In this document: piece by piece, positions 1,085 to 27,886 of the stretch | Layout of the letters: the number at the start of each line of letters is the position of its first letter | How positions within the stretch are numbered: position 1 is the first letter of the stretch | Origin: Ascochyta rabiei | Taxonomy: Eukaryota; Ascomycota; Dothideomycetes; Pleosporales; Didymellaceae | NCBI RefSeq assembly: GCF_004011695.2 | Contig: NC_082413.1 | Span: 806,001-870,000 of the forward strand | DNA length: 64,000 nt | Reading direction: 5' to 3' | Position numbers and translations under genes: made by a program | The notes under the pieces: generated by a model | Told to the model about the DNA's origin: nothing | The model's input: only the letters and a program-made list of their open reading frames with translations | Database searches by the model: none

Positions 1085-1093
1085 AAAAAAAAA
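1085..1093 (-). terminator. Pol III terminator of the tRNA-Pro gene
   Basis: Read on the minus strand, a run of nine T residues begins five bases after the tRNA discriminator base (1098). A T-run directly 3' of a tRNA is the standard RNA polymerase III termination signal. It supports this locus being, or having been, a real tRNA transcription unit rather than a chance match. Confidence 0.85.
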
Positions 1094-1133
1094 GGACGGG
1101 CCCAACCGCGATTCGAACGCGGGGCCTCTTGCA

Positions 1134-1148
1134 CGTTTGAGACGGGCG
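1134..1148 (-). other. Canonical 15-nt tRNA intron in the anticodon loop
   Basis: These 15 bases lie directly after position 37 of the tRNA-Pro(TGG). This is the place where tRNA splicing endonuclease introns sit in eukaryotic nuclear tRNAs. Without them the loop reads TTTGGGT on a perfect 5-bp stem. Confidence 0.85.
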
Positions 1149-1161
1149 CCCAAAGCAAGAA

Positions 1162-1211
1162 ATGCAGCTCTGTTAGCTGAGTGTGCATTCGTGGACGCGG
1201 ATGTCACTTAC
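1162..1211 (-). other. Spliceosomal-looking intron 2 inside the tRNA-Pro D-arm
   Basis: This 50-bp insertion lies between tRNA positions 24 and 25. It starts GTAAGT (1211-1206), has CTAAC at 1176-1172 and ends GCAT instead of an AG. The branch-like A is 11 nt from the 3' end, as in intron 1. A single G-to-T change at 1162 would explain the missing AG. Confidence 0.7.
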
Positions 1212-1223
1212 TCATACCACTAG

Positions 1224-1273
1224 CTGGATGCTCGTTAGAGCGACCTGGGGAAGCTGGGGTTGTGGGTACTTAC
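1224..1273 (-). other. Spliceosomal-looking intron 1 inside the tRNA-Pro D-arm
   Basis: This 50-bp insertion lies between tRNA positions 11 and 12. It starts GTAAGT (1273-1268), has a CTAAC branch site at 1238-1234 and ends CCAG (1227-1224). These are the same signals as the mRNA introns elsewhere in this window. It interrupts the internal Pol III A box. Confidence 0.75.
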
Positions 1274-1284
1274 ACCATTAGGCC

Positions 1285-1895: not shown

Positions 1896-3550
1896 TCACA
1901 ACTTCGACTCCCGCGGCTGGCGAGGAGCACCGACTTTGCTCAACGCACTCCAAAGATTCAGACCCCCCTGAAGCCTCTCGTCATCCTCAATGGCAACGTT
2001 TCCATCTTCCTTGAGCGTACGAATCTGCATGTTATCTTTTGTGCCCCACTGTACCTTCTCACCGTTCAAGAATTGAGCCAATGGCTTCTGGAACGAATCA
2101 GTGACCACTCTCTTCTCCTCTGCTGTCAGGTCGTCGCCGTTGCCCCAGAACCAGATCGGTAGATCCGTCGTATGAGTTGGGCCATACCTCTTTGGCACCT
2201 TTTTATCAACGCAATTTGCTCGCCACTCTATGCGATATCGGTGTAGCAGGTCACCAGCGCCGTGTCGAACTAGAGCGTCTGCCATGCCTCGCTCAAGCGC
2301 GTGGATTTGCACATCAGCGTACACGTGTCCGAAAGCATCGCCCCAGCTCTTGTACCTCTTCGGTAGTTTGTGATCAGCAAAACAGTGCTTCATGAGTGCC
2401 TCCACAGCTGCCTTGGGGTAGTCTGCCTCCAGGCGGCGGAACAGATTGTCGAACCCTGCCTGTGGTGGTTTCCAAGTTCCGTAAAGGAAGTGTTCCTGCG
2501 AGCACTCTCCCATCATGATCTTCACATTGCGCTGCTTCAAACGGTGCGCAAACTTGCCGTTATCAAACTCCTTGATAAGATTGTGTCGGACAAAAACACC
2601 GTCTGTAACAGCGCGGAATTGGTGGATCTTCATCTTATTGCTCGCTACAATGAGCGCTTTTGCAGACAGTGCGCGCAGTTTGGCGAGCTTTTCGGATGGT
2701 CGCAACTCTTTCGGGATGTTTAGGACCTCGAGGAACTCATTGAACTGCACCTGCGATTCTTGCAAACTCTTTGGCTGCAATCCTGGTCCGTTTGAAAGCA
2801 TCAACGCTCTCTTCACAATAGCTTTCTTCTCCGGAACACCAAGATCATAAGCCAGCTGATGGAACACAGAGTGAGCGCCGGCTGAATATCCTGATATGGT
2901 GATGTTGGAAGAATTACCGCCAAAGTAACTGATGTTCTCCAAGGTCCACTGTAGCGCAAGACGCTGGTCCCAGAAGCCCAGGTTGACCTCAAAATCAGAA
3001 CAAGCCTGATGCAACTCAGGTGATGACAGGAAGCCGAATAGATTCAATCGATAGGCAGGTGCGACTACGATACATCGAGTGGGCGAGTCACTGAGGAAGG
3101 CGCGCATGTCCATGTCATTTGGGTTGCCGAATTGAAGAAAGCCACCGTGTATGTAAAATAACACTGGCCATCCTAATCATAGTTAGTTGCTGTTGCCACA
3201 TGTGAACATAGTAACAGACCTCCTTTGGGCGGATCTCCAATCGGAATCCAGATGTTACTCTGCAAGCAGTCTTCTTCCCACAACTGATCATCGAGTCCTT
3301 GCCGAGTGATCTGTGGACACAGCCCACAACTGCTAGTAAACCTTCCCGGATTCGATTTCGTCCCGTAGCGGTAACATGTTGGGAGTGATCTTGGTTTCTG
3401 GAAGCGGAACGGTCCTACTGGCGGAAGTCCGAACGGAACACCGCCGAAGAAGTGACAAAGCGGTTTCGACTTATCGTCGATGTATGTGAGACCTTCAACA
3501 ACACCACGGAATTGGAGGTCTTTTAAGCAAGGTTGAGATAGCTTCGACAT
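1896..3550 (-). CDS. Type B carboxylesterase with C-terminal SKL (535 aa)
   Basis: Exons are 3550-3220 and 3172-1896, separated by a 47-bp intron with donor GTCTGT, a CTAAC branch site and a TAG acceptor. The product is an alpha/beta-hydrolase of the carboxylesterase/cholinesterase family. It shows the early GGVPFGLPPVGPFRF block, an oxyanion-hole HGG near residue 120, and the nucleophile elbow GYSAG with Ser near residue 207. The length is normal for the family. There is no signal peptide, and the last three residues are SKL, a type 1 peroxisomal targeting signal, so a peroxisomal ester hydrolase is inferred. The substrate is unknown. The start chosen is the first ATG before the conserved block. 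Confidence 0.88.
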
Positions 3551-10484: not shown

Positions 10485-12392
10485 ATGGGGTTCTCGCGCT
10501 TCTTTGGCGTTGCTTTCCTCAGCCTTGTTGCTAGCACTCAGGCTATCGTCTCATCTACAGGGTTCACAGTCTCGCTTACAGACATCGACTACTTTCTGCC
10601 TCCTAAGCCAGTCGCAAGGATCGCAGGCTGCGAAGAGATTAAAGCAGCATATGCAGATGGACCGTTCGTTCCGTTCACTGTTGTGAAGAGCCACGAAAGC
10701 GGGACACTGGACACGGCATCAATCGCGGCTCAATTTGCAGAGCAAGACGATGTCTGGCAAGAGGGCTTCCTTGATGGTATTTATCGACGTGAACATCTGC
10801 AAGAGGTATGACTGACTGGCTTAGCACTATATGTACAAGGTGGTAGCAAAAGCAACGTCTCTACTGTGGTTATCACCGGCACGGTTTTTGGAGAGCTAAA
10901 ACCTGGCCCCTACTTCATCAACGCGGCGGGTCAAGTGTATGAGGCATGGCGCTTGTACAGCGACGTGACAGGCGCTTTCACTGAATCCGCAATTGCCAAC
11001 GGTGACGGCTCCTACTCTGTACTTCCTGCAGGTACCGTTGGTCAGAAGACTGCCCTCGCTGTGCCATCTCGCCTCTACTTTTCGAAAACAGCAGAGAAAC
11101 CTTTGGCTGGCGTTCGCATTGGCATCAAGGACATCTACGACATCAAAGGCCTGCGCACTTCGAACGGAAATCGTGCTTGGTACTGGCTGTATCCGGCCGC
11201 GAATCACACAGCAACGCCGGTCCAGAATTTGATCGATGCAGGTGCCATCATCGTCGGCAAGATGATTACCTCGCAGTTTGCAAACGGAGAGACGGCCACT
11301 GCTGACTGGGTCGATTATCATGAGGCTTTCAACCCCCGAGGTGACGGCTACCAGGACACCTCTTCCAGTTCTTCTGGTGGGGGCGCCGCTACTGCCGCGT
11401 ACGCATGGCTTGATGCTTCGCTCGGCTCAGATACGGGTGGAAGTGTCCGTGGCCCATCTCAAGTTCAAGGTCTCTACGGAAACAGACCATCGCACGGCCT
11501 CGTCACATTGGAGCACACTATGCCGATGGCTCCAGTCCTCGACACTGCTGGTCTGATAGCTCGTGACCCCTTGATCTGGAGAGATGCGGCTCAAGCCATG
11601 TATGGATCCAATGTTACCATCAGCGACGCCTATCCAGCCAGCATCAAGACGCTTGCCTGGCCCACTGAAGCTAGCAATGCTGCCAACGCGCTTCTTATCG
11701 ACTTCTTGAAAAGCGTCACCGACTTCCTAGGCGCCAACACCACTGCCTTTAATGTCACAGCCTCCTGGAGCACCGATAATCCTGGCTTAGAGCCGCTTAC
11801 AGAAATGATGAACCTTACCTATGCCATTCTCATCACCAAGCAACAGGTGCCACTGGTCCGCGAGCCCTTCCTCGCCGACTACGCCGCCAAACACGATGGC
11901 CGCACGCCCTTTATTAATCCAGTCCCGTTGGCTCGCTGGGGCTGGGGAGATAACCAAACCGCCACTCTCGAAGACGGTATTGCGAACAAAACAACGTTCA
12001 TGTCTTGGGCTAACTCGACCTTCCTCGCTCCATCGGCACAGACATGCTCCGAGAGCCTTGTCATGTATGTCGGGTCTACCGGACTCACAAACTACCGCAA
12101 CATCTACCTCGATGAACCTGGCGTGCCGCTTGGGTGGGGCAACAGCCGTATCTCCATCTTCTCGGAGGCCCCGGATTTCGTCGTGCCAGTGGGCGAGGCG
12201 CCGTACAATTCAACAATCACAAACCACGTTGAGTACCTACCTGTAACGGCAAACTTCATGGCCGCGAAGGGTTGTGATGGAATGTTGTTCTCGTTGATTG
12301 GGGATTTGTACGAGGCGGGGATATTGAAGGAGGCATTGGCTGGGAAAAGTGGGGTTACGGGGGGTGAGACGCTGTACAGGAGAGGGTTCTGA
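10485..12392 (+). CDS. Secreted amidase-signature protein (619 aa)
   Basis: Exons are 10485-10776 and 10825-12392. The 48-bp intron (GTATTT..TTAG with a CTGAC branch) joins GAT G to CA CTA TAT, giving DALYVQGG in frame. The N-terminus is a signal peptide ([20 protein letters not shown]). The amidase-signature core supplies the Ser-cisSer-Lys triad: Lys in IGIKDIYDI, the cis-Ser in the Ser/Gly run [10 protein letters not shown], and the nucleophile in [10 protein letters not shown]. Many N-glycosylation sites (NHT, NVT, NTT) agree with secretion. The domain is related to GatA and fatty-acid amide hydrolases, but a secreted fungal member probably acts on an external amide. The N-terminal 150 residues before the amidase core are specific to this fungal subfamily. 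The substrate is unknown. Confidence 0.88.
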
Positions 12393-15900: not shown

Positions 15901-16561
15901 AGGTTTTCTGGAAGAAGTACAAGCAGTTGGAAAACTGGCAAAAGTACCTCAACGTCGTCGAGGAGGGCGAGCAGCGTGTCCGCGACTCGGAGACCAAGAA
16001 GCGACTGCTGGCCAAGAAGATTGGTCAGTACAGGATGCCTCTGCAACAAATGGCTATCAAGTACACAGTGTCAACGACGAACAAGAAGGTTTACACCGAA
16101 GAGGAGGATCGATTCCTACTTGTCATGCTCCACAAGCACGGCGTTGAGGGCGAAACGATCTACGACAAGATTCGCGACGAGATTCGGGAGTCGCCTCTGT
16201 TCCGTTTTGATTGGTTCTTCCTCAGCCGCACGCCTCAAGAAATTGGCCGTCGTTGCACGACACTCATTCAGACTGTTGTCCGTGAGCTCGGTGGCGACAC
16301 TGGCAAGAACGGCAAGGGCAAGCGTGCGTTTGAAGAGGAGGAGACAGAAGAGGAGGAGGAAGAGCCTGTCAAGAAGAAGGCCAAGAATGGTGTCAAGGTT
16401 TGTGCTTCGCCGACGAACCTGACAAAGCTTCTGCTAACAATCGACAGAACAAGCAGCTTGATACCGTGAAGGGCCAAGCCTCTCCCGCAACATCGCGGGC
16501 CAGCAGCGTCGCCTCGACCGGATCCGCTACCAAGGGCAAGGCGAAGGGCAAGAAGAAGTAG
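12932..16561 (+). CDS. ISW1: ISWI-type chromatin-remodelling ATPase (1115 aa)
   Basis: There are five exons: 12932-13048, 13161-13187 (27 bp), 13244-13384, 13449-16397 and 16448-16561. The protein slides nucleosomes using ATP. The Snf2 ATPase shows motif I DEMGLGKT, motif II DEAH ([13 protein letters not shown]), the [18 protein letters not shown] block, and the helicase C half with [13 protein letters not shown] and [16 protein letters not shown]. The ISWI-specific C-terminal HAND-SANT-SLIDE region follows ([23 protein letters not shown], then [15 protein letters not shown] and [18 protein letters not shown]). A Glu-rich and Lys-rich tail ends the protein. The third intron (13385-13448) uses a GC donor (GCACGT), because a GT alternative breaks the frame. 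The family includes ISW1 and ISW2; ISW1 is used as the best generic name. Confidence 0.95.
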
Positions 16562-25933: not shown

Positions 25934-27886
25934 TTAGAAGATGTTGCGCAGCTTGATCAGATCCGCAGCCTTCTCAGCAACAGCGTACATGGTTGCTTGC
26001 AAGTGAGTAGCAGGAATCAAAGGGATGATGCTAGCATCGATGATGCTGAGGCTCTTCGTGCCGTAGACGCGCAGATCGCTGCCGACACAGCCACCGTACT
26101 TTTCGGGCAGCATGGAGCAAGTACCCGATTGATGAGCCCAAGTAGGATGGAGTGCATCGTTTTCGAGAAGAGCGTGGATGATCTCGTCGTCGGTCTGAGC
26201 AGCAGCACCCGGGGTGAGTTCGACGGGCGAGAAGCGAGCGAGAACGGGGCTCTTCCAGTGACGGCGGAGCCACCTAATCGCCTCAACTATCATAGTCCTG
26301 TCAGCAGGGTTTTGGAAGGTGTTGAACTGAATGATGGGGTTTCCGGTAGGGTTGGTGGGATTGAGAGCAACGTATCCACGGGACAGGGGGCGCTCAACAG
26401 CGCTAATAGCAAGACCGAAGGCGTTCATCGGGAATTCGAAAGCAGCGGCCTTTGTTCCAGAGAGAAGTTCCAAAGTGATCGCCTTAGCAACTTCATAACC
26501 GCGAAGGAGGTTGGGGTTGTTCTTGTAGACGGCAGGAAGGTAGTCAACAGACTTCTGGCCCCTGATAGTAGAGACGATCTGCTTGTAGTCGGAAGCAACG
26601 CTTTGAAGAGACAAGAAGGCCAGACTGCTACCGTGCGACTGGGTGACAGGACCAGTGCGATTGGCGTAGTACTGCTCCCAAGCTGTGGCGTTTTGAACTG
26701 GGTCGGTAGCGAAGTTGGGATTGGGAGTGCTCAAATTCTGGGTGGGTCAGATGGATTCTCTATCATGATGTAGTAGTGTCTGGGGTACATACCTGAGTTG
26801 AGAAGAACATGTCAGCGTTAGGGTGGTCTTGCAGGTTGGCACCAACAGCGGCAAGATCTTTCTTAACCTTCACGCCAGCAGCCTTGAGGACATTTGCAGG
26901 GCCCACACCGCTCAGTTGAAGGATCTTGGGAGTGAACACCGAGCCTGCAGCAAGAATAACTTCTCGCTTTGCGTAGACTCTTGATGTAGTCTTGTCAGCG
27001 AGGTTGGTAAATAACACACCCTTGGCGGTTAGTTTATCGAAGAGGACTTCGGTAGCCTCAACGCCAGTAACAAGCTTCAGGTTGGGGCGGCTCTTGACAG
27101 AGTCGTAGTATGTCCTTCTCGCATCTGAACGTGTTTGGGTCTTGGGATCCAGGGAGGTGGGGACCCACAGGGCACCGACAGCATCTCCTGCAGCATGCTC
27201 CTTAGGCGTGGGGTAACCTCCAGCTCTCCACGCTTCCCACATGACCTTGACATCGGGAAACTCGAAGTTGGGAAATGACGCCTGGATTGGGCCATTTTTA
27301 CCGTACACTGAGGCGTCGTGGGTAATGTTGAACTCCTTGGCGAGTATAGGTGGAGTGAAAGTAGTAGACTTCTTGAAATACGGAAGAAGTCCATTCCAAC
27401 CCCAGCCTGGGTTGCCCAGCTGCTCCCAAGCATCGTAATCAGCGGCTGAAGCGCGATCGAAGGCCATACCGTTGACCACCGAACCACCTCCAACGACCCT
27501 TCCAATCAGGACTGGGGCACTGAGGCCGTCGAGAGCAGCATCAGGGGCAGATTCGACATCATACTGCATTGCGCTATTGATGTTGTTGCCAGAAGCGGGA
27601 ATGACGGTGTTGATGTCCTCTGTGATTGGACCAGTCTCCAGAACAAGTACTGAACCTGCTGGTCTTAGCTGACACGTAGCTGATGGCATGGGTTTCTGAA
27701 CTCACGGAATTTGTTCTCACTCAGACGATTGGCAACCACCAAACCAGTAAGACCACCACCTACAATGACATAGTCGTAGGCTTTGTTCTTGATGGATGAT
27801 ACATCATCGCGTTTTACAGCTGGAACAGCGACGACGAAGGGCAGGACCGCCGCGAAAGAGACGAGACTCCTCAAACTGGGTGCCAT
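25934..27886 (-). CDS. Secreted GMC oxidoreductase (616 aa)
   Basis: Exons are 27886-27706, 27658-26793 and 26737-25934. A signal peptide (MAPSLRSLVSFAAVLPFVVA) with a KR processing site is followed by the FAD-binding VIVGGGLTGLVVANRLSE. The GMC signatures follow: GRVVGGGSVVNGMAFDRA, the second signature AAGSVFTPKILQLSGVGP, and a C-terminal active-site region HPTWAHQSGTCSM..DASIIPLIPATHLQATMYAVAEKAADLI. Such enzymes oxidise alcohols or sugars and release H2O2 outside the cell (aryl-alcohol oxidase, glucose oxidase, choline dehydrogenase relatives); which substrate cannot be told. The first intron ends CAGCAG, so the exon may start three bases later. The promoter has a TATA box enclosed in an inverted repeat. 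Confidence 0.92.

Follow-up and report, generated by a model that had tools for sequence, protein, structure and literature searches.

Probable spliceosomal introns in at least 36 nuclear tRNA genes of Ascochyta rabiei, including a tRNA-Pro(UGG) gene that carries two

The window, by which we mean the whole stretch of 64,000 nt of Ascochyta rabiei analysed here (C9:806001-870000), carries near its start, on the minus strand, a gene that reads as a nuclear tRNA-Pro(UGG) with two apparent mRNA-type introns and an ordinary tRNA intron. Ordinary fungal genes lie in the same window, among them a carboxylesterase (1899-3164, minus strand) and an amidase (10866-12389, plus strand) recognized by Pfam, which also finds a piece of a GMC oxidoreductase at 26766-27689 on the minus strand. 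An ISWI protein gene occupies 13.6-16.5 kb, its product being most similar to Pleosporales proteins (best match 97%; 90-91% for those of Paraphoma, Pyrenochaeta and Coniothyrium), and a Rav1-like protein matches one of Neocucurbitaria at 80%. The tRNA gene is made up as follows.

1098-1284, minus strand: tRNA-Pro(UGG) gene in four exons (11, 12, 13 and 36 nt)
1274-1284, minus strand: exon 1, the 5' strand of the acceptor stem and nt 8-11, GGCCTAATGGT; pairs 7/7 with 1099-1105
1267-1277, minus strand: box A-like stretch TGGTGTAAGTA, formed by exon 1 and the 5' splice site of intron 1; putative promoter element
1224-1273, minus strand: mRNA-type intron 1, GTAAGT...CTAAC...CAG, 50 nt long, separating mature nt 11 from nt 12
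1234-1238, minus strand: predicted branch site CTAAC of intron 1, the intron ending 11 nt after the branch A
1212-1223, minus strand: exon 2, the remaining D-arm, CTAGTGGTATGA
1162-1211, minus strand: mRNA-type intron 2, GTAAGT...CTAAC...CAT, 50 nt long, separating mature nt 23 from nt 24; its 3' end is not AG
1172-1176, minus strand: predicted branch site CTAAC of intron 2, the intron ending 11 nt after the branch A
1149-1161, minus strand: exon 3, the end of the D-arm, the 5' side of the anticodon stem and the loop with anticodon TGG
1134-1148, minus strand: ordinary tRNA intron, 15 nt, after nt 36, that is, after the nucleotide 3' of the anticodon; not GT..AG
1098-1133, minus strand: exon 4, the 3' side of the anticodon stem, variable loop, T-arm, 3' strand of the acceptor stem and discriminator C
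1110-1118, minus strand: box B core GTTCGAATC, intact by sequence; putative promoter element
1085-1093, minus strand: T9 run, by sequence a Pol III terminator; predicted role

When joined in silico, the four minus-strand blocks give the 72-nt molecule that the first-pass annotation had described, and ARAGORN, which we used in place of a covariance model, agrees with it in calling a tRNA-Pro(tgg); the first outcome named there as refuting, a joined sequence that fails as tRNA-Pro, thus did not arise. The T-stem is paired 5/5 and the acceptor stem 7/7 with one T.G wobble, so that the stem said to be perfect is fully paired without being Watson-Crick throughout. The T9 run is present, and both 50-nt inserts start with GTAAGT and contain CTAAC, as had been noted. 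The first ends in CAG and the second, a point absent from that annotation, in CAT, so that one of the two is GT..AG. Pol III signals are present by sequence (box A in part, box B and the T-run), the GG at the end of box A being missing.

In its unspliced form the gene is not recognized: ARAGORN run without introns or with introns of up to 60 nt called no tRNA, and there was no Rfam match at the gathering threshold nor at E<=5. With introns of any length, ARAGORN reads the locus as a 94-nt tRNA-Gly(tcc) with one 93-nt intron, which we take as spurious, the D-arm of that model being weak and its variable loop very long. Compared with two sister TGG genes, the window copy differs at 4 bases, which amount to 2 compensatory stem pairs. 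It has no TATA-like motif in the upstream stretch seen and could therefore be weak or decaying.

We searched the genome (40,901,820 bases in 23 contigs) and fetched loci by pattern and DNA searches, and found at least 36 tRNA genes with 45 mRNA-type insertions. The arrangement seen in the window gene is real and is not a single case. Interrupted genes include 7 for tRNA-Pro of AGG or TGG type and 2 for Pro(CGG), 5 for Gln, 2 for Cys, 4 for His, 3 for Leu, 1 for Met, 3 for Ser(GCT), 2 for Ala(CGC), 6 for Arg(ACG) and 1 for Asp. The loci fetched hold 88 further nuclear tRNA genes without such insertions (counted by place and not by checked isotype), so the insertions are widespread and not universal. 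In 35 of the 36 interrupted genes the ordinary 37/38 intron is also present, requiring a second, different removal.

The gene count is a lower bound, since the searches were limited by mismatches and by the matches listed. Some isotypes were not found; Phe, for example, turned up neither intact nor interrupted in these same non-exhaustive searches. The pattern GGTTCGANTCC performed no better than its control (88 matches versus 96). A more specific pattern for the tRNA 3' end gave 102 matches versus 14 in the control, and a second one 151 versus 45 with many overlapping rows, loci being taken among the matches listed for each (up to C11 for the second). Scoring of 32 candidates missed at least two known genes, Leu-TAG (L057) and Leu-CAA (L146). 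Not counted among the 36 were a broken Asp-like copy (L147), an Asn-like one (L131), a truncated Lys gene (L099), a further incomplete Arg 3' half next to L141, and four ARAGORN calls that misread interrupted genes or covered them in part. The Asp-like copy (C11:1337265-1337580) has extra bases in its T-arm and is probably a pseudogene, and the partial Arg(ACG) sequence, a T-arm and acceptor 3' half, lies at C5:350182, downstream of the L141 gene. The terminator context is rather fixed, many nuclear tRNA genes ending in TTTTTGC (102 pattern matches versus 14 for the reversed control). Contig C23, 55 kb with a dense tRNA set, looks mitochondrial. Neither the exact pattern of the interrupted Pro/His genes nor that of the Arg genes had a match in viral contigs, and the Pro/His pattern had none in bacterial and archaeal genomes either.

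Counting nucleotides along each mature tRNA, the insertions fall after positions 9, 10, 11, 15, 18, 19, 23, 25, 26, 30, 33, 48, 53, 54 and 60, that is, in the D-arm, the anticodon stem, the anticodon itself, the variable arm and the T-loop. The site of window intron 1, after nt 11, is common to 14 of the 45, and none of the 45 holds the canonical tRNA-intron position 37/38. Both Pro(CGG) genes found (L142 and L148) carry a GTAAGT..CAG intron within the anticodon, C/GG; one insertion lies in the variable arm of Leu(TAG), and Leu(CAA) and Arg(ACG) have one at or in the T-loop. The tRNA-Asp gene at L109 (C17:539250-539900) has three mRNA-type introns, one of them 96 nt long with short internal repeats; at other loci there are six Asp genes that lack such introns.

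The insertions share the signals of mRNA introns. GT..AG borders occur in 43 of 45, where 0.35 would be expected by chance with equivalent placements allowed for. The 5' sites are GTAAGT (26), GTACGT (6), GTAAGC (5) and close variants (8), and the 3' ends CAG (32), TAG (10), AAG, CTG and CAT (1 each). A CTRAY branch motif lies 5-20 nt before the end in 41 of the 45, including both window introns, and in 40 of these 41 the end falls 10-12 nt after the branch A. Lengths are narrow, 48-59 nt in 43 of 45, the other two being 68 and 96 nt. As a control, 37 ordinary tRNA introns (from 35 interrupted genes and 2 control genes) yielded no GT..AG and no CTRAY; these introns are 9-49 nt as delimited here and occupy a single position. 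Counted against the spliceosomal reading are the two introns without a terminal AG, one in the window gene and the other in L002 (CTG), and the four of 45 that have TAATAAC, CTTAAC, ATTAAC or CCTTAC in place of CTRAY where it would be expected. An mRNA intron of the ISWI gene at 16398-16447 of the window, GTTTGT..CTAACAATCGACAG, has the same build as the tRNA introns.

The CAT end leaves some room for a misread second insertion in the window gene. Its 3' junction might lie elsewhere, for example after an AG within CTCAGCTAACAGAG, with the remaining 6-15 nt removed or kept in some other way, or the copy might be dead; the L002 intron at the same site, which ends in CTG, would fit such an account. 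The ends assigned here lie 11 nt (window) and 10 nt (L002) after the branch A, as is usual in the set, and the junction drawn restores a standard D-arm. One study describes CUG and CAU as 3' sites that a Prp18-less yeast spliceosome can use (PMC10711555), so such ends may be used inefficiently, or both copies may be decaying. On balance we regard a misplaced junction or a dead copy as rather unlikely, and keep to the reading in which intron 2 ends at CAT.

Removal of all introns produced a tRNA of the expected isotype and anticodon from all 36 genes according to ARAGORN, and with three controls without such introns the expected isotype was obtained in 39 of 39; we placed the borders of the ordinary 37/38 introns manually so as to leave a 7-nt anticodon loop, which favours this success and leaves the 45 introns unaffected. 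In the spliced products the acceptor stem (7/7) and T-stem (5/5) are paired throughout. When introns of up to 60 nt were allowed, ARAGORN called a tRNA in 4 of the 36 unspliced genes, none of them that of the window: two calls had the wrong amino acid (Pro-TGG-3 as Gln and Ala-CGC-2 as Asp), one was a Leu with the wrong anticodon and one a Ser over part of the gene.

Interruptions at several places in one tRNA are known from systems in which the tRNA splicing endonuclease cuts at bulge-helix-bulge motifs, and the same enzyme might be thought to remove the inserts here, as in Cyanidioschyzon merolae and some archaea. A report on C. merolae tRNA-Ile describes introns with hBHBh' motifs in the D-, anticodon and T-arms (PMC9602550), sites that the insertion positions in A. 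rabiei resemble. In a simple purpose-made check (a 4-bp helix between two 3-nt bulges, rather than a covariance model), the central helix could form at 3 of the 45 junctions, the window's second junction among them, versus 3.8 in shuffles, and with flanking helices at none of 45 versus 0.45 in shuffles. Moreover, the endonuclease has no need of GT..AG or CTRAY, both absent from the 37 ordinary tRNA introns. We therefore consider removal of the mRNA-type introns by the endonuclease highly improbable.

Introner elements have been reported in Dothideomycetes, and the insertions could in principle be introns of that kind that spread recently. Between families, however, the cores of the 45 introns share only matches of 10-11 nt, with E values of 0.007 or weaker, and a recent spread of introners thus seems very improbable. 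Within families the picture is one of stable exons: across nine multi-gene anticodon families the mature sequences are 87.5-100% identical and the intron cores 46-97%, with shuffles at 45-53%. Exceptions are Ser(GCT), whose cores are 91-97% alike, one Gln pair (94%) and one His pair (97%), so divergence has not reached every intron. The first-pass annotation had named, as a finding that would refute it, relatives with the blocks as unrelated fragments at different spacing; paralogues in this genome keep the order of the blocks, with exons conserved and inserts mostly diverged. Conserved exons, mostly diverged introns and compensatory changes together read as a trace of selection on a predicted spliced product.

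Three pairs of paralogues, Leu-CAG, Met-e and Ala-CGC, differ by one mRNA-type intron and are identical in mature sequence. Leu(CAG) and elongator Met are each represented by one copy that has the intron and by one or more that lack it; the two Ala(CGC) genes are one intron apart. Such presence and absence shows intron gain or loss and does not reveal the mechanism, for which the first-pass annotation had suggested reverse splicing as a possible route. Together with an intron-bearing U6 gene and the 36 interrupted tRNA genes of the same genome, the pairs support the earlier proposal of mRNA-type introns in a Pol III tRNA gene beside its normal intron.

For other isotypes no intact counterpart was found. 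Searches of the genome gave no uninterrupted Gln D-arm (up to 1 mismatch) or Cys D-arm (up to 2 mismatches), and a Pro-type D-arm pattern (up to 2 mismatches) gave three matches, none of them a Pro gene free of such introns: Pro-CGG-1, in which the D-arm is whole and the anticodon split, the Pro(TGG) gene that is interrupted after nt 23, and one Ala(CGC) gene. All 4 His, 6 Arg(ACG) and 3 Ser(GCT) genes found in this non-exhaustive search are interrupted. Since a cell cannot live without tRNAs for Pro, Gln, Cys and His, removal of their introns is very likely. Given a complete assembly and the mismatch limits of the patterns, the mRNA-type introns appear essential to remove.

These observations also bear on whether the interrupted copies are pseudogenes, with other, intact genes supplying the tRNAs. 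Leu-CAG, Met-e and Asp do have copies without such introns, intact genes were looked for in non-exhaustive searches, an AG is missing from the window copy, and neither that copy nor the three-intron Asp copy has a TATA-like motif in the stretch seen. Decay fits poorly, however, with the failure to find a Pro, Gln or Cys gene that lacks such introns, with the interruption of every His, Arg-ACG and Ser-GCT gene found, and with exons that are kept, with compensatory stem changes, while most introns diverge. We judge it very improbable that the interrupted genes are dead as a class, and the view of them as working genes is retained below.

Signals for Pol III persist in these genes. Of the 20 genes interrupted after nt 9-11, 18 have the A of box A position 14 provided by the 5' splice site (TGGT-GTAAG or TGG-GTAAG), which does not restore the closing GG of box A. 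This overlap may have arisen by chance likeness of the motifs, or may act as a filter that decides which sites are permitted. Box B lies whole within an exon in 29 of the 36 genes, and Leu(CAA) regains it where the exons join. Each of the six Arg(ACG) genes found (L141 and L187-L191) has a T-loop intron that splits box B as GGTT/CGACC and that contains GTTCRANTCC overlapping the branch-site stretch; this motif is found in 6 of 6 Arg(ACG) introns, which belong to paralogues and are not independent, and in none of the other 39. Since 7 of the other 39 introns contain a looser version of the box B motif, the argument depends on the strict motif together with its position. Among the Arg(ACG) genes, the stretch upstream of the intronic GTTCRANTCC has diverged to 54-81% identity. 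Schizosaccharomyces U6 introns carry box B, as Frendewey reportedly described in 1990. TATA-like motifs lie upstream of 29 of the 39 genes examined, several of the upstream stretches being short.

The small nuclear RNA genes of the genome were considered alongside. The U6 gene at C14:905425 has no introns, and a U6 copy at C9:1076009-1076174 (L118) has two of mRNA type, at 1540-1605 and 1643-1695 of L118 on the plus strand, one (GTATGT..GCAG) within the ACAGAGA region and the other (GTGAGT..CTGACAG) further on. U3 snoRNA is present in two copies, each matching the model from first to last position within 221 nt. A 2017 survey names U3 and U6 as the sole small structured RNAs in which frequent interruption is known (PMC5832005).

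Taken together, the sequence evidence makes it very probable that the window gene is a nuclear tRNA-Pro(UGG) with two U2-type spliceosomal introns and a normal 37/38 intron, one of at least 36 such interrupted genes. Pol III would transcribe it by means of box A, a box B that is kept or rebuilt and the T-run terminator; the spliceosome would take out the introns of 48-96 nt, with the CAT 3' end of window intron 2 in use; tRNA endonuclease and ligase would take out the short anticodon-loop intron; and trimming of the ends would presumably come last. With somewhat less assurance, we think it likely that the Pro, Gln, Cys, His, Arg-ACG and Ser-GCT families are made only via both the spliceosome and the tRNA endonuclease, that box B is rebuilt in the Arg introns by the branch site and box A partly from the 5' splice site, and that the anticodons of the two Pro(CGG) genes exist only after splicing. 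If whole isoacceptor families need spliceosomal splicing, then translation would depend directly on the spliceosome.

We found no report of spliceosomal introns in nuclear tRNA genes in the open-licence literature searched, some result sets being available in part, and 'Spliceosom' has 0 occurrences in the main text of PMC4090602 and PMC8450103. The splicing of nuclear tRNAs is taught as a pathway distinct from that of mRNAs and as the work of a different machine, and a substantial part of the tRNA set of this fungus appears to need both. Because dozens of tRNA genes are interrupted, apparently all of them for some amino acids, the mRNA-splicing machine is probably needed for tRNAs. If true, failure of the spliceosome would mean immediate failure of translation, and the spliceosome would be able to act on short folded Pol III transcripts at many positions. 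Pairs with and without an intron would let intron gain be timed, a box B rebuilt within introns would offer a direct test of co-evolution between promoter and intron, and such introns would explain tRNAs missed by gene finders in genomes of this kind.

Three known systems invite comparison. The canonical 37/38 tRNA introns share 35 of the 36 genes and sit after the nucleotide 3' of the anticodon; they differ from the mRNA-type introns in being 9-49 nt long, in having no GT..AG (0/37) and in keeping to one position. The bulge-helix-bulge introns of C. merolae and the Thermoproteales likewise come several to a gene, in C. merolae in the D-, anticodon and T-arms, whereas the junctions in A. rabiei have no excess of such motifs and carry spliceosomal signals instead. 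The third system is that of the U6 and U3 introns of fungi, which are likewise spliceosomal introns (PMC5832005) in genes for small structured RNAs, with paralogues that have or lack the intron; as in U6-type genes, paralogues with the same mature RNA differ in this way for Leu-CAG, Met-e and Ala-CGC. Unlike in that system, the hosts here are tRNAs, 36 genes are involved, the introns occupy the D-, anticodon, variable and T-arms as well as the anticodon itself, and 35 of the 36 genes need a second, different intron removed.
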